A DNA stretch of 35,238 bases from the NCBI RefSeq assembly GCF_001437155.1, contig NZ_JQAR01000024.1, forward strand, positions 1 to 35,238. The letters are read 5' to 3'. A program made the position numbers and the translations under genes. Shown one piece after another: positions 4,120-35,043 of the stretch; positions within the stretch are counted from its first letter, which is position 1, and the number at the start of each line of letters is the position of its first letter. The notes under the pieces are model-generated. The model worked only from the letters and a program-made list of their open reading frames with translations. It did no database searches and had not been told where the DNA came from. Source of the stretch: Liquorilactobacillus mali (GTDB lineage Bacteria > Bacillota > Bacilli > Lactobacillales > Lactobacillaceae).

Positions 4120-4148
4120 TTGAAATGCAAAATAAAATGAGCTATAGT
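4120..4148 (+). promoter_or_regulatory. Promoter of the argCJBDF operon
   Basis: TTGAAA (4120-4125) and TATAGT (4143-4148) are separated by exactly 17 bases, so this is a good sigma-A promoter. Transcription should start near 4155, about 50 bases before argC. The ARG box at 4162-4177 lies just downstream of that start. Confidence 0.7.
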
Positions 4149-4161
4149 TATCATCATCAAA

Positions 4162-4177
4162 ATGAATTGTTATTCAT
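4162..4177. promoter_or_regulatory. ARG box (ArgR operator)
   Basis: ATGAATTGTTATTCAT is a perfect palindrome with 6-base arms around TGTT. It matches the classical ArgR half-sites TGAAT / ATTCA. It lies just after the predicted transcription start of the arginine operon, where bound ArgR would block transcription. A second half-site-like TTTATTCAT occurs near 4074-4082 and could be an upstream auxiliary site. Confidence 0.75.
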
Positions 4178-4205
4178 AAAAAATGAATTAAAAGGGAGTG
4201 ATTTC

Positions 4206-5237
4206 ATGCACGTCGCAATTTTAGGGGCAACCGGATATAGTGGCAATGTTCTCTATAATTTATTGTCACAGCATCCTAATGTTGAAACAATAAATCTATA
4301 TGGTCATGAAGGGGGCAAGAGCTCTCGCTTCCTCGATGATGAAGTTCCAGCTTTTTTTTCAGCTCATATAGCCATCTTGCCGTTCAACCCTAAAGAAATC
4401 ATGGCAAATAATGATTTGCTTTTCTGTGCGACCCCTGCTGGAATTACTAAAGACTTGATGGAACCCTTTATATTAGCGGGTTTCCCAGTAATTGACTTAT
4501 CAGGTGACTTTCGTTTAACAGACCCCGCCACCTATGAGAAGTGGTACCACAAAGAAGCCGCATCTGTGAACTTATTAGAAAAAGCTGCTTATGGTTTAGC
4601 CGAGTTTCCAGAAGAGAAAGCCAGCAAGTATATTGCCAATCCTGGATGTTATGCAACTGCTACGTTGCTTGGGTTAGCACCCCTAGTCATTAAACATATG
4701 ATTCAAAAAGATTCGATTATAGTTGATGCAAAATCAGGTGTTTCGGGTTCGGGGAGAAAGTTAAGCTCAAGTAGCCAATACAATTTTATAAATGAAAATG
4801 TATGGCTATACAAAATGAATAAACACCAGCATATTCCAGAAATTATGCAAAAGTTAAATGAATGGGATTCTCATATTCCAGCTATTCAATTTTCAACAAC
4901 TCTGATTCCTGTGACTCGTGGAATCATGGCAACAATCTATCTTAAACCACTTGAAAAATATACTAATGAACAGTTATTAGAATGTTTTCACCAATTTTAT
5001 GATAATGCACCTTTTGTTCGTTTCAGAGAAAATGATCTGCCAACTATTAAAGAGGTCACCGGCTCTAACTTCTGTGATATTGGAATCAACTACAATCCAA
5101 TCACCAATACGATTACCATTGTTTCTGTAATCGATAATTTGATGAAGGGAGCTGCAGGACAAGCTATCCAAAACTTCAATACCCTTTGTAACTTAGAACC
5201 CACTAGTGGTCTACCATTATTACCAGTTTTTCCTTAG
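4206..5237 (+). CDS. argC: N-acetyl-gamma-glutamyl-phosphate reductase
   Basis: ArgC reduces N-acetylglutamyl phosphate to the semialdehyde with NADPH, the third step of ornithine synthesis. The 343-residue protein opens with the Rossmann motif GATGYSG (residues 7-13), and the catalytic cysteine is Cys148 in NPGCYAT. The start is ATG 4206, preceded by AAAGGGAGTG; a longer reading from 4125 has no ribosome site and would include the promoter -10 box and operator. It is the first gene of argCJBDF, 27 bases before argJ. Length and motifs are normal for the family. Confidence 0.95.
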   Translation: MHVAILGATGYSGNVLYNLLSQHPNVETINLYGHEGGKSSRFLDDEVPAFFSAHIAILPFNPKEIMANNDLLFCATPAGITKDLMEPFILAGFPVIDLSGDFRLTDPATYEKWYHKEAASVNLLEKAAYGLAEFPEEKASKYIANPGCYATATLLGLAPLVIKHMIQKDSIIVDAKSGVSGSGRKLSSSSQYNFINENVWLYKMNKHQHIPEIMQKLNEWDSHIPAIQFSTTLIPVTRGIMATIYLKPLEKYTNEQLLECFHQFYDNAPFVRFRENDLPTIKEVTGSNFCDIGINYNPITNTITIVSVIDNLMKGAAGQAIQNFNTLCNLEPTSGLPLLPVFP

Positions 5238-5264
5238 CACATAAATCTAAAGGGAGTATCAAAA

Positions 5265-6467
5265 ATGACAAATACTAATAATTTTATTGAAACAGATTTT
5301 GCATGGCCAAAGGGGTTCTATAGTGATGCAAAGCATATAGGTCTCAAACATGAGAAATTAGATTTTGGCTGGTTATATTCCAAAACACCTGCTACTGCAG
5401 CTGGAGTCTACACAACTAACAAATTTTGCGCAGCTCCAACAGCCAAAACAAAGGAAATCGTCAGTCAAAGCCATAAGCTTCAAGCAATTATTGCTAATAG
5501 TGCTATTGCGAATTCTTGTACAGGTCTTCAAGGAGAGAAAGATGTCCTCACAGAACAGAGATTAGTTGCTGAAAAATTAAATATTGAGCCCCAACTTGTA
5601 GGTGTTGCTTCAACTGGACTAATAGGGACATGTTTACCAATGAAAAAGATTAAAAAGGGCATTGCTGGACTATCGTTAACTTCCAGTACTGACCTTACAA
5701 AAGCAATTTTGACAACCGATACAAAACAAAAAATTATTAGCATTTCTTTTAAAATACAAGGAATTACTTGTAAAATGTCTGGCTTTGCTAAAGGTTCTGG
5801 GATGATTCACCCCAAAATGGCAACAATGCTTGCCTTTATCACGACAGATGTTGCAGTAAATGATGATACTTTGCAGTCATTGCTTAACGAATTAACTGAT
5901 GTTACCTTCAATCAAATTACAGTTGATGGTGATACTTCAACAAATGATATGGTCCTTACATTAGCCAATGGAATGGCGGATAATGAGACACTAACTAAGG
6001 AAAGTCCAGATTATCAGACATTCAAAGAAGCACTCCACTTTGTTTTACAGAAATTAGCGCAAAAGATCGCTGCTGATGGTGAAGGAGCAACCAAATTAGT
6101 TGAAGCAAATGTTTTGGAAGCACAAAGCAAAATGGATGCACAAGCAATTTCTAAAGCAATTGTTGGTTCAAACCTTGTTAAAGCAGCACTTTTTGGAGCA
6201 GATCCTAATTGGGGAAGAATTATCAGTACCATTGGAGCAACTCCAGCAACATACAATCCCGAGACAATCGATATTAAAATCAATGACTTCTTAGTCGTTA
6301 AGCGAAGTCTAGCCGTCGATTTCAATAAAGAAGAAGTCAGCGATAGCCTCAAACAAGATGTGATCACTTTAACTGTTGACTTACATGATGGTCAATACGA
6401 TGGGCAAGCATGGGGCTGTGACTTAACTTACGAATATGTAAAAATCAATGCAACATACAGTAGCTGA
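5265..6467 (+). CDS. argJ: Ornithine acetyltransferase / N-acetylglutamate synthase
   Basis: ArgJ moves the acetyl group from N-acetylornithine to glutamate, closing the cyclic acetyl pathway; bifunctional members also make N-acetylglutamate from acetyl-CoA. The 400-residue precursor cleaves itself, and the site KMATML is present: the new N-terminal nucleophile would be Thr187. ANSAIANSCTG (residues 77-87) is the family's ANSGNANACTG-like motif. The ribosome site is AAAGGGAGTATC. No argA or argE lies in the operon, which fits a recycling pathway. Whether this enzyme is mono- or bifunctional cannot be read from the sequence. Confidence 0.95.
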   Translation: MTNTNNFIETDFAWPKGFYSDAKHIGLKHEKLDFGWLYSKTPATAAGVYTTNKFCAAPTAKTKEIVSQSHKLQAIIANSAIANSCTGLQGEKDVLTEQRLVAEKLNIEPQLVGVASTGLIGTCLPMKKIKKGIAGLSLTSSTDLTKAILTTDTKQKIISISFKIQGITCKMSGFAKGSGMIHPKMATMLAFITTDVAVNDDTLQSLLNELTDVTFNQITVDGDTSTNDMVLTLANGMADNETLTKESPDYQTFKEALHFVLQKLAQKIAADGEGATKLVEANVLEAQSKMDAQAISKAIVGSNLVKAALFGADPNWGRIISTIGATPATYNPETIDIKINDFLVVKRSLAVDFNKEEVSDSLKQDVITLTVDLHDGQYDGQAWGCDLTYEYVKINATYSS

Positions 6468-6490
6468 TCATTAGGAAAGGAGGTTTCAAG

Positions 6491-7255
6491 ATGGAGAACT
6501 TAATTGTAATTAAAATTGGTGGAAATTCAATTGAAACATTGACCCCAAGTTTTTTCTCACAAATTCGTCAATGGATGCTGGTAAAAAAACGTATTTTAAT
6601 AATTCACGGCGGCGGCAGCAAAATTTCAGAATTATCTGACACGCTTAAGATTCCTGTTAAAAAGGTTGACGGTATGCGAGTCACAGATACAGCAACACTT
6701 GAATTGACACGAATGGTATTACTAGGTCAAACACAGCCACAATTATTAATGAAATTAACGAAAGCCGAAATTCCTGCAATCGGTTTGAACGCAGCAGATG
6801 AATCCATCTTGAATGGATCCTTTCTTAACAAAAAAAAATACGGCTTAGTTGGTAAAATCGATAGAGTTGATGACACATTACTCGGTGAGATTTTGGACAA
6901 GCACATCGCAGTTTTGGCCCCAATGGTTTTAACAGATGAGCAACAATGGCTGAACGTCAATGCAGATACTGCAGCTTCAAAGATAGCGGGTCTTCTAAAA
7001 GCAGAGAAACTGTATCTGATGACAGATGTTCCTGGAGTTCTCCATGAGGGAGAAATCGTCCGAAGTCTCTCACCTAGCACTGCGGCAAAGTTACAAGAAC
7101 AAAAAATTATAACCATGGGAATGCAGCCAAAGATAAAAGCAGCTTTTAGTGCATTAAGTCTTGGTGTCCCAAGTGTTCAGATTACTAACCAACTTACTAC
7201 TTTAGGAACGACTATTATTCAGGAAGGAGCTAATGAAAATGCAATCTATTTTTAA
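6491..7255 (+). CDS. argB: N-acetylglutamate kinase
   Basis: ArgB phosphorylates N-acetylglutamate, the second step of the pathway. The 254-residue amino-acid-kinase fold shows KIGGNS (residues 8-13), the glycine loop HGGGSK (39-44) and a C-terminal TDVPGV nucleotide-site stretch. It is of the short type. Arginine-inhibited hexameric enzymes usually carry an extra N-terminal helix, which is absent here, so weak feedback inhibition is possible but not shown. A very strong AAAGGAGG ribosome site precedes it. Its last 23 bases overlap argD, suggesting translational coupling. Confidence 0.94.
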   Translation: MENLIVIKIGGNSIETLTPSFFSQIRQWMLVKKRILIIHGGGSKISELSDTLKIPVKKVDGMRVTDTATLELTRMVLLGQTQPQLLMKLTKAEIPAIGLNAADESILNGSFLNKKKYGLVGKIDRVDDTLLGEILDKHIAVLAPMVLTDEQQWLNVNADTAASKIAGLLKAEKLYLMTDVPGVLHEGEIVRSLSPSTAAKLQEQKIITMGMQPKIKAAFSALSLGVPSVQITNQLTTLGTTIIQEGANENAIYF

Positions 7256-8390
7256 AACATACAACAGATTTCCATTTGAAATAGTTAAAGGTGAAGGCGT
7301 CACTTTATTTGACGAAACGGGGAAAAAATATCTAGATTTAACCAGTGGAATTGGGGTTTGCAACTTGGGATACAGTTCGAAAAAAGTCAAGGATGCAGTG
7401 AGTGCACAATTAGACAAAATCTGGCACACTTCAAACCTCTACGAAAGTCAGTTGCAAGAAAACGTCGCGGAATTGCTAATTAAAGGTACCGATAAAAAAG
7501 TATATTTCTGTAATTCCGGAACAGAAGCTAATGAGGCAGCATTGAAATTAGCTCGTAAAGCAACCGGGAAAAGTAAAATGATGGCTTTTGACCACTCCTT
7601 CCATGGTAGAAGTTATGGCTCGCTTTCACTAACTGGCAACGATAAAATAAAAGAAGGATTTGGCCCATTCTTATCTGATATTGAATTTGAAACATACAAT
7701 GATTTTGATTCGATCGAAAAAATCGATAATTCATTTGCTGCTGTTATCTTGGAAGTAATTCAGGGAGAAGGCGGCATCGTAGTTGGAGATTATGACTGGC
7801 TGCAAGCTGTCGCAGCCAAATGCAAAGAAACTAATGTATTGCTAATTATTGATGAGGTTCAAACAGGGATGGGAAGAACCGGTAAACTCTTTGCCTATGA
7901 AAACTATGACTTAGATCCCGACATTATAACTGTTGCAAAAGGCCTTGCAAATGGTATTCCAGTCGGTGCAATGATTGGGAAAGCCGAGTTAGCAGATTCT
8001 TTCGGTCCTGGATCTCATGGTTCAACTTTTGGCGGCAATCCACTTGCAATGAGTGCTGCAAGTGCTGTATTAGAAACACTAGATGATACCTTTTTAGACG
8101 ATGTCCAACAAAAAGCTAGTTTTCTCTGGTACTTCCTTGAAAAAGAAATTTCTTCATTAGAAGGTGTTGACTCAATTTCTGGCAAGGGTTTAATGATTGG
8201 TATCCATATTAACTCTTCTATTCCTGTTAATCAGGTAATCACTGAATTACACAAAGTTGGTGTGCTAACTCTTTCATCTAGAGGTAACACTCTTCGTCTT
8301 CTTCCACCGTTGACAATTATGAGTTCTGAATTATTGGAAGGTGTCAAAAAAATAAAAGAAGTCCTACAAAATGTGACCGTGAGCTTATAG
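7233..8390 (+). CDS. argD: Acetylornithine aminotransferase
   Basis: A PLP-dependent class III aminotransferase that converts N-acetylglutamate semialdehyde to N-acetylornithine with glutamate as amino donor. The 385-residue protein has NSGTEANE (residues 94-101) for the cofactor phosphate, IDEVQTG (206-212) with the pyridine-binding Asp, and the Schiff-base Lys236 in VAKGLANG. Two in-frame ATGs (7233 and 7239) share the AGGAG site inside the end of argB; spacing does not decide between them. It is the fourth gene of the operon, 10 bases before argF. Confidence 0.94.
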
Positions 8391-8400
8391 GAGGTGCAAT

Positions 8401-9420
8401 ATGAATCACTTTTTTGGTAAATCTTTCCTCAAAGAAAACGATTTTTCTGCTAAGGAACTTAATTTCTTAATTGATTTTGCAATTCACTTAAAAGAATTAA
8501 AGAAGCAAAATATTTCCCATCAGTACCTCGCTGGAAAAAATATTGCACTTTTGTTTGAAAAAGCATCTACGAGAACTCGTTCAGCATTCACTGTTGCTGC
8601 AACAGATTTAGGTGCGCATCCTGAATTCTTGGGTAAAAACGACATTCAGTTTGGAAATAAAGAATCCGTTGCGGACACTGCGATCGTACTTGGCAGTATG
8701 TTCGATGGAATTGAATTTCGTGGCTTTTCACAGGAAACTGCAACAGAATTGGCAGCAAAGAGTGGCGTTCCGGTCTGGAATGGCTTGACGGATGATTGGC
8801 ATCCAACACAAATGATAGCCGATTTCATGACGCTCAAGGAACATTTTGGTAAGCTTAAAGGGCTGACACTTACTTATGTAGGAGATGGGCGTAACAATAT
8901 GGCCAATAGTCTCTTGATGACGGGTGCAATCCTTGGCGTGAATATTCACATTGGCTCACCTGTATCTCTTCAACCTTCAAAAGAGGTTCAAAATCTAGCA
9001 TTTGAAGAAGCAAAAAAAAGCGGTGCAGAACTGCTGATAACTGATGATGTTCAAAAAGCAGCAGCGAATGCCGATGCTCTTTATACGGATGTTTGGGTAT
9101 CGATGGGCGAAGATGTCGACTACGGTGAAAGAATTAAACTGCTTCTTCCCTATCAGATAAATGGTGAATTGGTAGAAAAGACTGGTAAAGAGGATACAAT
9201 CATCCTGCATTGCTTGCCTGCATTTCACGATAAGAAGACGACTATTGGAAAAAAGTTAGCGGACCAATACAATTTGGAGTCGCTTGAGATCACAGATGAG
9301 GTCTTCAAGAGCAGTAATTCGGTTGTATTCCAAGAAGCAGCTAACCGTATGCATGCAATCAAATCAATTATGGCTGCAACATTAGGACATCCGTTCATTC
9401 CTGAAGAATGCTTTGAATAA
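8401..9420 (+). CDS. argF: Ornithine carbamoyltransferase (anabolic)
   Basis: Joins carbamoyl phosphate and ornithine to give citrulline. The 339-residue protein has the carbamoyl-phosphate motif STRTR (residues 56-60), HPTQ (134-137), an SMG loop (234-236) and HCLP (270-273) with the catalytic Cys. The ribosome site is AGGAGGTGCAAT. Its place at the end of argCJBD points to the biosynthetic enzyme and not the arginine-deiminase arcB, although the proteins are hard to tell apart by sequence alone. The operon ends in the strong hairpin at 9574-9608. Confidence 0.93.
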
Positions 9421-9686: not shown

Positions 9687-11054
9687 TTAAATCTTGCGTC
9701 CAGGATTCAAAATATTATTGGGATCGAATGCTTGTTTAACCTTGCGTTGTAAGTCAACAACTTCTTGTCCTAATTGTGAAACAATCCATCCATATTTTAG
9801 ATCACCAATCCCATGTTCTGCTGAGATTGTTCCACCTAATGATTGTGCAAAAGCAAAAATCTTCTCAATTGCGCTTTTTACATCTTCTGGAATTGTATCC
9901 AAATCTCTAGAAATTGCAATATTTGGATGGAAATTACCGTCACCTGCATGACCACCTAAGAATGCCTTTACTGGTGATGTAAAATTAAGATTGTCTACAA
10001 ACTCCGCAAGTTCAGGCAGCTTAGAAAGTGGTACTGCAACATCTTCGACCACTAGTCTCCCGTAAGCTGCCTCTGCTTTGTAATAATCCTGTCGTATTTT
10101 AACAATCTGTTTTGCATATTCAGGATCATCTGTTACTGAAACATGCAAAGCGTCATTTTGTTCTAGTGTCTTCTTAAGTGCCTCTAAAGCCCCAACTGGG
10201 GTTACATCCAATTGAAAAATCAACAAAGCTTCCGCGCCTTCTTTGCCCATATCTGTTCCCTCGAGGGCATCAAGAGCTTCTATTGAAGTTTTATTTAATG
10301 CTTCCATCATTGATGGGTTTAGACCACTAGCTGATATCTTCTCAACTGCGATACTTAATGCCTTCATATCGGCAAATGTTGCCAATCCTGTTGTTGAATT
10401 ACCAAAAGGAATAGGCAGGATTCTAACTGTCGCTTCCACCACAACACCAAGAGTTCCCTCCGAACCAACAAATAAATCTGTCAGGTCATATCCCGCATTA
10501 TTTTTAAAGCAGCGTCCACCTGTTTCTACTACTGTTCCATCAGCCAGTACAACCTTCAGTCCCAATACTGATTGTTTTGTCGTTCCGTACTTTAAGGAAC
10601 TCATGCCACCAGCATTAGTTGCAATGTTTCCACCAACTGTACTTATTGGTTTTGAACCAGGATCTGGTGCAAAAAAGTATCCTTGTTTGCGGACTTCTTT
10701 ATCTAAAGTTCCATTCAGAACTCCGGCTTCTACCACGGCTGTCTGATCTGCTGTATTAATTTCGATAATTTTGTCCAACTTTGCCAAGTTCAAGACAATT
10801 CCGCCATTTTCACCAGCTGAACCATTAACAATGGAAGTTCCACCACCATAGACTGTAACCGCAATTTTTTCACGATTAGCAAATTTAACTGTCTCCTGTA
10901 CATCTGCAATACTCCTAGCATTTATCAATACAGCCGGTTTACTTCCTGTGATTATCTCTTGCGTAAATTTATTCTGACCGTAGCTCTCTAGTATCTTCTC
11001 ATCACTTACTATTTCTCCAGTAGGTAATTGTAATTTTCTTATATCAAATGTCAT
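9687..11054 (-). CDS. FAD-linked 2-hydroxyacid oxidoreductase (GlcD / D-lactate dehydrogenase-like)
   Basis: A 455-residue flavoenzyme of the VAO/PCMH superfamily that oxidises 2-hydroxy acids to 2-oxo acids. The FAD domain (about 35-215) has GGGTS (70-74), DPGS (131-134) and GGNIATNAGG (141-150). The C-terminal domain has EDVAVP (337-342), the metal/substrate motif GGHAGDGNFHPN (367-378) and AEHGIG (412-417). All key motifs are intact. Relatives include glycolate oxidase GlcD, D-lactate dehydrogenase and D-2-hydroxyglutarate dehydrogenase; the substrate cannot be decided by reading. The gene stands alone behind a T-box leader, with GGAAGGA just before ATG. If the specifier is indeed Asp, one possible role is to supply oxaloacetate (from malate) or another 2-oxo acid for aspartate synthesis; that is inference. 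Confidence 0.88.
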   Translation of the reverse strand: MTFDIRKLQLPTGEIVSDEKILESYGQNKFTQEIITGSKPAVLINARSIADVQETVKFANREKIAVTVYGGGTSIVNGSAGENGGIVLNLAKLDKIIEINTADQTAVVEAGVLNGTLDKEVRKQGYFFAPDPGSKPISTVGGNIATNAGGMSSLKYGTTKQSVLGLKVVLADGTVVETGGRCFKNNAGYDLTDLFVGSEGTLGVVVEATVRILPIPFGNSTTGLATFADMKALSIAVEKISASGLNPSMMEALNKTSIEALDALEGTDMGKEGAEALLIFQLDVTPVGALEALKKTLEQNDALHVSVTDDPEYAKQIVKIRQDYYKAEAAYGRLVVEDVAVPLSKLPELAEFVDNLNFTSPVKAFLGGHAGDGNFHPNIAISRDLDTIPEDVKSAIEKIFAFAQSLGGTISAEHGIGDLKYGWIVSQLGQEVVDLQRKVKQAFDPNNILNPGRKI

Positions 11055-11076
11055 ATTTTAACTTCCTTCCTATAAT

Positions 11077-11308
11077 AAAAAGAGTCGTCCTTCTCACATG
11101 AAGGACGACTCTTGCCGCGGTACCACCTTGATAAACTTAAGTTGTTAAGTCCACTCTAATGCGGTAACGGGCATTTCCGTAATCAGTTTAACTTCGCTTA
11201 CTAATTCATCATCTTAAATAAAGACCATCTTCAACCAATCTTTCAACTATCTCCCAGCAAAACAACAGCTCTCTTAATTCAAGACTAATTTACTCATCTT
11301 TTGATTTT
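11077..11308 (-). ncRNA. T-box riboswitch leader, specifier reads GAU (Asp)
   Basis: Minus-strand leader of the FAD oxidoreductase. Stem I: AGTA (11294-11291) opposite GAA (11232-11230) forms the loop-E pair, flanked by a 10-bp helix of 11290-11281 with 11242-11233 in which every position pairs if G-U is allowed. The AGAGAG motif is at 11274-11269. The triplet after GAA is GAT (11229-11227), the specifier position. The antiterminator box AGGTGGTACCGCGG is at 11128-11115. The competing terminator has 12-bp arms (11111-11100 with 11093-11082) followed by T5. T-box RNAs bind uncharged tRNA and read through when that amino acid is scarce. The T-box call is firm; the Asp reading depends on loop alignment. 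Confidence 0.92.
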
Positions 11309-11314
11309 AATGTA

Positions 11315-11343
11315 ATTATGGATTTTTAATTTTTGAAAGTCAA
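11315..11343 (-). promoter_or_regulatory. Promoter of the T-box transcript
   Basis: TTGACT (11343-11338) and CATAAT (11320-11315) on the minus strand are 17 bases apart. Transcription would begin near 11308, exactly where the T-box leader starts. The region 11344-11465 upstream shows nothing further. Confidence 0.7.
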
Positions 11344-34602: not shown

Positions 34603-35043
34603 TTAATTATTTTTTTGTTTGAATGGATCAATGTATTCTCTTTTACTAATTGTATCCCGCAGTTGATCTTCTGATTCTTGTTCTCGAATATATTTTTCTA
34701 TTGTTTTTTGATTTAGTCCAACTGTACTTGCGAAGTATCCTCTTGCCCAAAAACTCCTATTTCCATAATTGTATTTCAAATTTGCATGACGTTCATGGAT
34801 AATTACTGCACTTCTTCCTTTCAAATATCCCATGAAGCTTGAAACACTTATTTTTGGTAGTATTTTTACAAGCATATGAATATGATCTGGCATTGCATGG
34901 GCTTCGATTATCTCCACTTCTTTTAGCTCACATAACCTTCTAAGTTTTCCATATATAACCTTTCTTCGGTATTTCGGTGCGAATACTATATGATACTTAC
35001 AATTCCATCTCGTATGTGCTAAGCTATTATCATCTTTTGACAA
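34603..35043 (-). CDS. tnpA: IS200/IS605-family Y1 transposase TnpA
   Basis: A 146-residue HUH single-strand transposase. WNCKYHIVFAPKYRR opens the fold. The metal-binding pair is His-Ile-His in MPDHIHMLV. The catalytic tyrosine is in TVGLNQKTIEKYIREQE. All parts are intact and the length is normal. It starts with TTG at 35043, behind GGAAG that is locked in a long hairpin (35047-35111). No tnpB or RNA-guided nuclease gene is present, so this is a tnpA-only element. Confidence 0.93.
   Translation of the reverse strand: MSKDDNSLAHTRWNCKYHIVFAPKYRRKVIYGKLRRLCELKEVEIIEAHAMPDHIHMLVKILPKISVSSFMGYLKGRSAVIIHERHANLKYNYGNRSFWARGYFASTVGLNQKTIEKYIREQESEDQLRDTISKREYIDPFKQKNN

Follow-up and report, generated by a model that had tools for sequence, protein, structure and literature searches.

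The window, by which we mean the whole 35,238-nucleotide stretch of Liquorilactobacillus mali DNA that was analysed, carries on its minus strand a T-box leader followed by a single gene for a predicted FAD-dependent D-2-hydroxyacid dehydrogenase of the GlcD/LDHD type (455 aa; 9687-11054, minus strand), assigned from Pfam domains, solved chains and catalytic residues. A promoter-like pair, matching at 10 of 12 positions (11315-11343, minus strand), comprises a -35 element TTGACT at 11343-11338 and, 17 nucleotides further on, a -10 element CATAAT at 11320-11315; in the promoter scan overall, such sites were no commoner than in shuffled sequences. A ribosome-binding site, GGAAGGAAG, lies at 11062-11070 on the same strand, between the leader and the gene. 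As the sequence-only reading of this DNA had described, the gene stands alone: a terminator-like inverted repeat (9608-9574), which was found by terminator scan and reads on both strands, separates it from a convergent gene. Across this repeat lie argC-, argJ-, argB-, argD- and argF-like genes (4125-9420, plus strand; named by eye), for which no link to the T-box was found; the connection once drawn between this arginine operon and the leader comes down to convergence across a terminator-like repeat. Elsewhere in the window, an ORF at 34603-35043 (minus strand) resembles by eye an IS200/IS605-type transposase.

The leader RNA (11098-11314, minus strand) matches the Rfam T-box model RF00230 over model positions 1-219 (window 11314-11098; 91.2 bits, E 1.3e-20), and a whole-genome search returned the same score of 91.2 bits. 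The gathering score of this model is 93, which places the leader 1.8 bits under it, so that a default cmscan came back empty whereas the scan by E-value was unambiguous. The leaders of four relatives exceed the gathering score. In its own genome we counted 33 T-boxes with E < 1e-6, nine of them at or over the gathering score, while the 34th match (E 6.8) is noise. The T-box is therefore real and far above chance, and the full-length Infernal match bears out the earlier description of a complete one.

All the expected elements were located on the minus strand. The basal helix of stem I is formed by AAAGA (11297-11301) pairing with UCUUU (11224-11220), the latter placed by helix-anchored reading, and the loop E (S-turn) motif by AGUA (11291-11294) and its GAA partner (11230-11232), both seen in the sequence and in the Rfam alignment, which enclose the specifier codon. 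The T-box sequence AGGUGGUACCGCGG (11115-11128), likewise supported by sequence and Rfam alignment, forms the antiterminator with its UGGU bulge for the tRNA 3' end and is followed by an intrinsic terminator of 14 pairs and a T run (11080-11113; -25.9 kcal/mol, z -4.8, equalled by 0 of 200 shuffles). The promoter, the loop E pair and the antiterminator box thus lie where they had been reported, and so does the terminator, whose stem had been given as 12 bp. Stem I folded alone showed no excess stability (z -0.05). The variable base of the UGGN motif is U, as expected for a tRNA ending in A. As a clue to specificity this base proved uninformative, since U also occurs in the T-box of hisS-aspS (L022) and in the Trp T-boxes L017 and L018.

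The same reading had placed an Asp codon, GAU, at the specifier position. As read from the sequence, the specifier is AUG (Met; 11226-11228, minus strand), and the earlier call was a misreading by one base: GAU occupies 11229-11227, a frame one base 5' of the specifier register, in which neither GAU nor GAC is found. The order in the leader is GAA-G-AUG-G, followed by the basal helix of stem I, and it is because this series precedes the helix strand UCUUU (11224-11220) that the codon is read as AUG. The Rfam columns, the stem I helix and the relatives all give this result. In the leaders of the same genome, the Rfam specifier columns show CUC for leuS, UAC for tyrS, CAC for hisZ and AUG for metQ, while those of ileS and valS are gapped at these columns and the codon is not shown there. 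A helix-anchored automatic caller was right for 12 of the 20 T-boxes of this genome whose target has a known amino acid (its first form, before tightening, for 11 of 21), and for 9 of 9 where its anchor was an exact AGUA lying 2-3 nt off a helix with at least 4 pairs, a criterion set after seeing the result. These nine precede leuS, tyrS, hisZ, pheS, hisS-aspS, trpS, metQ, metA and cystathionine lyase; in the eight misses the caller had used a different motif or a helix at a distance of 1 nt. By hand count, the GAU register, that is the three bases right after GAA, fits only two of the nine (leuS and pheS). Among the target names, leuS, tyrS, pheS and hisS pass NCBIfam cut-offs, aspS after hisS was recognised by eye, metQ, metA and cystathionine lyase are best matches below cut-off, and hisZ and trpS were named by eye, with no match at the strict 1e-100 limit.

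Orthologous leaders carry the most weight. Five genomes of the genus (that of the window included) have GAA-G-AUG in the leader directly before the gene, and it recurs in a metQNI-aminotransferase-glcD operon; GAA-U-AUG is found in the leader of Lentilactobacillus diolivorans and in two metQNI operons of another genus. The base before AUG hence varies among relatives and AUG is constant, which speaks against GAU. Our reading of the specifier accordingly rests on the AGUA-anchored cases, on the Rfam columns and above all on the relatives. Furthermore, the window leader shares the loop GAAGAUGGUCUU with those of a metA-like gene (L016) and a cystathionine-lyase-like gene (L027), and the Asp-reading T-box of the same genome, before hisS-aspS, carries GAC. 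Since a shift of one base turned Met into Asp, the stem I helix should serve as the reference when T-box specifiers are read. The window RNA is, in sum, an ordinary, well-made Met T-box.

We then followed the gene through 397 Lactobacillaceae genomes, which yielded 19 members at 66% identity or more (the window included; one fragment, L142, was dropped), a further 8 orthologues at 54-56% identity, all from a single other genus (g19), and numerous paralogues at greater distance. In a tree of 36 proteins, the 19 members group with the 8 g19 orthologues in a single clade (support 1.0), outside which fall two paralogues and seven more distant proteins. Met-reading T-boxes stand over 10 of the 19 members, six in leaders of their own and four in operons, and all ten read AUG. 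The operons have the order T-box-metQ-metN-metI-gene (L150, L154), T-box-metQ-metN-metI-aminotransferase-gene (L156) and T-box-aminotransferase-gene (L157); protein families were scanned for L150, L156 and L157, with L154 judged by likeness, and the MetQ, MetN and MetI models are best matches below their cut-offs, while the aminotransferases pass PRK08068. In Lentilactobacillus (L148, L149, L151-L153) the gene is divergent from cysK-, cystathionine lyase- and cysE-like genes, and some of these loci also contain luxS- and metE-like genes at a greater distance (all by eye). The remaining nine members lack a T-box, eight having none and L. ghanensis a leader remnant, according to stretches of 7-9 kb that were read and searched for the core pattern, in part also with Rfam (L127 was judged from L151 instead). 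The L. ghanensis leader (L120, G225) amounts to a natural deletion, with promoter, start of stem I and terminator kept and the T-box body lost.

Seven of the eight g19 orthologues also have T-boxes: six read UUG (Leu) and one AUG, and the eighth has none (the Rfam model was run on one of these leaders). Since Leu specifiers occur here, the enzyme family is not tied to methionine alone. Downstream sequence was read for two g19 loci, L158 and L159; in both, the gene precedes another aminotransferase gene and an L-2-hydroxyisocaproate-dehydrogenase-like gene, the latter represented in L159 by a 112-aa fragment that matches 1hyh (E 9e-36). By contrast with the orthologues, Rfam detected a T-box in 0 of 40 paralogue leaders (44-48% identity, about 700 nt each). 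These controls are the 39 next matches after the clades plus one from further down, so not all paralogues, and a reach of about 700 nt would miss an operon T-box lying further upstream. A looser core pattern gave one exact match among the 40, on the antisense strand of L201; L143 and L144, which were kept apart from this set, have no T-box core.

The window protein has the Pfam domains FAD_binding_4 and FAD-oxidase_C, and is the only FAD-oxidase_C protein found in its genome. Its nearest solved chains (9qgz, 7qh2, 3pm9 and 8jdc) include glycolate oxidase, LctD and mammalian LDHD, and the closest named relative is a Liquorilactobacillus mali protein at 97% identity, in a search that possibly lacked the window's own genome. 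The best NCBIfam model is the glcD equivalog TIGR00387, which scores 347.2 bits against a cut-off of 567.9, so the protein falls outside that equivalog. As far as the available text of PMC10589216 goes, LDHD needs the Arg, three His and Glu of its active site, and these residues (R, H, H, E, H) are kept in 19 of 19 clade members. With both domains and this catalytic set in place, the enzyme is, on sequence criteria, a D-2-hydroxyacid dehydrogenase of the GlcD/LDHD type within the FAD-dependent VAO/PCMH family.

The pocket, compared by sequence alignment alone, argues against malate and 2-hydroxyglutarate. According to the accessible part of PMC7801405, four residues of D-2-hydroxyglutarate dehydrogenase hold the second carboxylate (K401, T390, Y432 and N443). 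In the window protein the alignment gives Val for K401, Tyr for T390 and Gly for Y432, and N443 is kept; all 19 clade members have Val at the Lys401-type position, which sets them apart from D-2-hydroxyglutarate/malate dehydrogenases to the extent that this partial source defines them. That text also has the N443-type Asn replaced by a hydrophobic residue in GlcD and D-LDH enzymes. The Asn in the window pocket is thus unlike those enzymes as described there, and counts against 2-hydroxy-4-methylthiobutyrate (HMTB), the substrate that we favour below. Overall the pocket would fit a D-2-hydroxyacid with a non-acidic side chain, without naming the substrate. Its signature is fixed within each clade and differs between them (19/19 and 8/8 in g19).

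Reading of the leaders assigned AUG to 15 of the 33 T-boxes in the genome of the window. The automatic caller gave this codon for 8 of the 15 and its first form added L006 and L031; for L014, L021, L024, L028 and L030, AUG was read by eye where the automatic callers gave other codons. The targets of these Met-reading T-boxes include a metQ-like gene, a metA-like gene together with a cystathionine-lyase-like gene, a metE-like gene, two oligopeptide-binding-type proteins and the window gene, as well as an FMN lactate-oxidase-like gene (L024) and an Ldh_2 dehydrogenase gene (L030). Two pairs of Met-reading T-boxes stand in tandem: L021/L027 before a second cystathionine-lyase-like gene (L021 by eye), and L019/L020 before a permease whose best match, below cut-off, is S-methylmethionine permease. 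An OsmC-family protein behind L007 (contig C67, 90878-91133) is an unexpected target, and AUG-reading L031 (contig C12, 122829-123055) precedes an ECF transporter S component of a riboflavin-like family, perhaps an importer of methionine or a precursor. The L006 unit comprises a nitrilase-family gene and then a PRK08068-type aminotransferase gene; this aminotransferase belongs to the same family as those in the operons of the relatives, to which it is 62-66% identical over the first 204 aa. The genome gave no match to acireductone dioxygenase or mtnA, and 2-oxo-4-methylthiobutyrate (KMTB) is therefore unlikely to come from methylthioadenosine, so that the keto acid for the aminotransferase probably comes from elsewhere.

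Some T-boxes of this genome with other specifiers also have targets of interest. Two divergent ketopantoate-reductase-like genes (L011 and L015; contig C14, 20031-20659) each have their own T-box, for which the caller gave GUC (Val) and AUC (Ile), and may encode D-2-hydroxyacid dehydrogenases for branched-chain keto acids. Another AUC (Ile) T-box (L005; contig C67, 82582-82820) precedes a protein of 271 aa that matches no Pfam family at 1e-5, and a SAM-III (SMK box) riboswitch (64 bits; L001, 167-250) lies about 1.2 kb before the leuS T-box.

The Ldh_2 dehydrogenase has 14 members at 62-100% identity in 151 genomes (its own included). Eight have their own Met-reading leader T-box. In a ninth, the gene comes after an aminotransferase gene of the family found in the L006 unit, behind a T-box whose loop is GAAGAUGGUCUU; of this T-box the stretch read (L241) holds part of stem I only. 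The other five of the 14 have no T-box, and one of these carries two in-frame stops. The AUG specifiers of the Ldh_2 leaders were read by eye, with Rfam run on L237 and L248; for L248 the Rfam columns give UGA, and AUG comes from the fixed 2-nt distance to the helix. A strict regular expression for the T-box core missed five of the eight (L235, L236, L237, L238 and L248), whose cores were later seen by eye. The T-box of the FMN lactate-oxidase-like gene L024 was likewise read as AUG by eye; before the one close relative of this gene, L206 (81% identical), none was seen. The Met regulon of this genome thus appears to include three 2-hydroxyacid oxidoreductases that are unrelated to one another.

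In architecture, in its AUG specifier loop and in its use of a transcriptional terminator, the leader is of one kind with other Met-specific T-boxes of the Lactobacillaceae, such as those of metA, metQNI, metE-like and cystathionine lyase genes, but it differs from them in its target, a 2-hydroxyacid oxidoreductase rather than a biosynthesis, transport or synthetase gene. The enzyme in turn shares with LDHD (8jdc and relatives), by sequence, both domains, the His/His/Glu metal ligands and the active-site Arg and His. The two are nevertheless distant (188 bits), with pocket residues I, Y, V and N against V, W, S and I in LDHD, and the window enzyme is bacterial and T-box controlled. With D-2-hydroxyglutarate dehydrogenase, as far as PMC7801405 was available, it has family, catalytic residues and the N443-type Asn in common but not Lys401, Thr390 or Tyr432. 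GlcD supplies the best NCBIfam model, though the score lies far under its cut-off. The nitrilase-aminotransferase unit resembles the B. subtilis pair mtnU-mtnE (ykrU-ykrV) of the methionine salvage pathway, except that the genome studied here has no match to mtnA or acireductone dioxygenase. In the searchable literature, including the accessible parts of PMC2494555, PMC3766115 and PMC6004538, we found no T-box regulon with a 2-hydroxyacid dehydrogenase as target; central older papers lie outside this scope and could mention one. It is thus the target, not the RNA, that is without precedent in this partly accessible literature, which does not amount to proof of novelty.

We consider it probable that this Met T-box controls an FAD-dependent dehydrogenase that oxidises D-HMTB to KMTB, which is then transaminated to methionine. 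When methionine runs short, uncharged tRNA-Met would pair with the leader twice, at the stem I AUG and at the UGGU of the antiterminator; this would keep the terminator (11113-11080) from forming and allow readthrough into the single flavoenzyme gene. The flavoenzyme would oxidise D-HMTB, its most plausible substrate, to KMTB, which would be converted into methionine by an aminotransferase likewise placed under a Met-reading T-box. The window enzyme probably also accepts related 2-hydroxy acids. Direct support comes from the T-box, its AUG specifier, the enzyme family with its intact catalytic residues, and the methionine-type operons of the relatives. From these we infer a response of the leader to tRNA-Met, as well as the substrate, reaction direction and electron acceptor of the enzyme, HMTB salvage being drawn from the regulon and the operons only. 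The earlier proposal that the flavoenzyme serves amino-acid supply therefore keeps its general part, T-box control and the probable provision of a 2-oxo acid for transamination, and loses its attribution to aspartate, oxaloacetate and malate.

Other explanations share parts of this picture. The strongest of them, which we nonetheless regard as unlikely, accepts the Met T-box but gives the enzyme the main job of oxidising D-lactate or another common D-2-hydroxyacid, with the methionine link reflecting redox or general stress. Lactate is abundant in lactobacilli, and the GlcD/LDHD family membership, with the sub-cut-off match to the glcD equivalog model (347 of 568 bits), would suit such a role; yet it leaves unaccounted for the linkage to metQNI-type genes and a transaminase, the absence of T-boxes before all 40 sampled paralogues, and a second unrelated family of hydroxyacid dehydrogenases in the same regulon. 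We give somewhat less credence still to a general salvage of 2-hydroxyacids, the analogues of Leu, Ile, Val and Met, in which the T-box picks whichever amino acid is limiting in a lineage. The UUG (Leu) specifiers of six of the eight g19 orthologues, with an aminotransferase and an L-2-hydroxyisocaproate-dehydrogenase-like gene downstream in two loci, accord with it, as does the one g19 member that keeps AUG while its pocket residues are the same as those of its Leu relatives. Mouse LDHD is broad, being active on hydrophobic D-2-hydroxyacids and inactive on D-malate and D-2-hydroxyglutarate, in the part of PMC10589216 available. Against such general salvage stand a pocket signature that is fixed in each clade and differs between the two, and the constancy of AUG in all ten T-boxes of the close clade.

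An Asp (GAU) T-box, with an enzyme making oxaloacetate from malate for aspartate, seems very improbable to us. GAU does directly follow GAA, and that register could arise if a U-G pair lengthened the helix, as seen for L156; the same register, however, would give UAU (Tyr) for two metQNI operons and GAU for a third, with AUG constant throughout, and it suits few of the anchored known specifiers (2 of 9), while the genome's own hisS-aspS T-box reads GAC. The methionine-type operons of the relatives likewise tell against a role in aspartate supply, and the pocket, with three of the four second-carboxylate residues lost, appears unsuited to a dicarboxylate as judged from the portion of PMC7801405 at hand. 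Least credible of all is a functionless relic, with the gene constitutive or silent. Such decay could be read into a score just under the Rfam gathering threshold, and into the L. ghanensis leader (L120), which is without a T-box body but keeps promoter and terminator; however, four further genomes of the genus and Lentilactobacillus diolivorans have the elements conserved.

Beyond the single locus, we tentatively extend D-HMTB oxidation under Met T-box control to a wider scheme, for and against which we hold the case to be nearly balanced. In this scheme, the Lactobacillaceae would possess a regulon for the salvage of methionine hydroxy analogue, in which the FAD enzyme handles the D form, the Ldh_2 and perhaps the FMN enzyme the L form, and a shared aminotransferase takes KMTB, joined in some species by a MetQNI importer, all jointly switched on by T-boxes responding to tRNA-Met. 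In another genus, the same FAD enzyme would have been re-wired to leucine through a change of AUG to UUG, together with an L-2-hydroxyisocaproate-dehydrogenase-like gene.

Lactic acid bacteria have long been known, from old nutrition work, to grow on hydroxy analogues of amino acids. If our interpretation is true, it would supply genes and a regulatory logic for the use of 2-hydroxy acids as amino-acid sources in these bacteria, and enzymes that annotations otherwise label glycolate or lactate oxidases would gain a substrate. It would also bear on what becomes of methionine hydroxy analogue, which is used as a feed additive, among lactobacilli.
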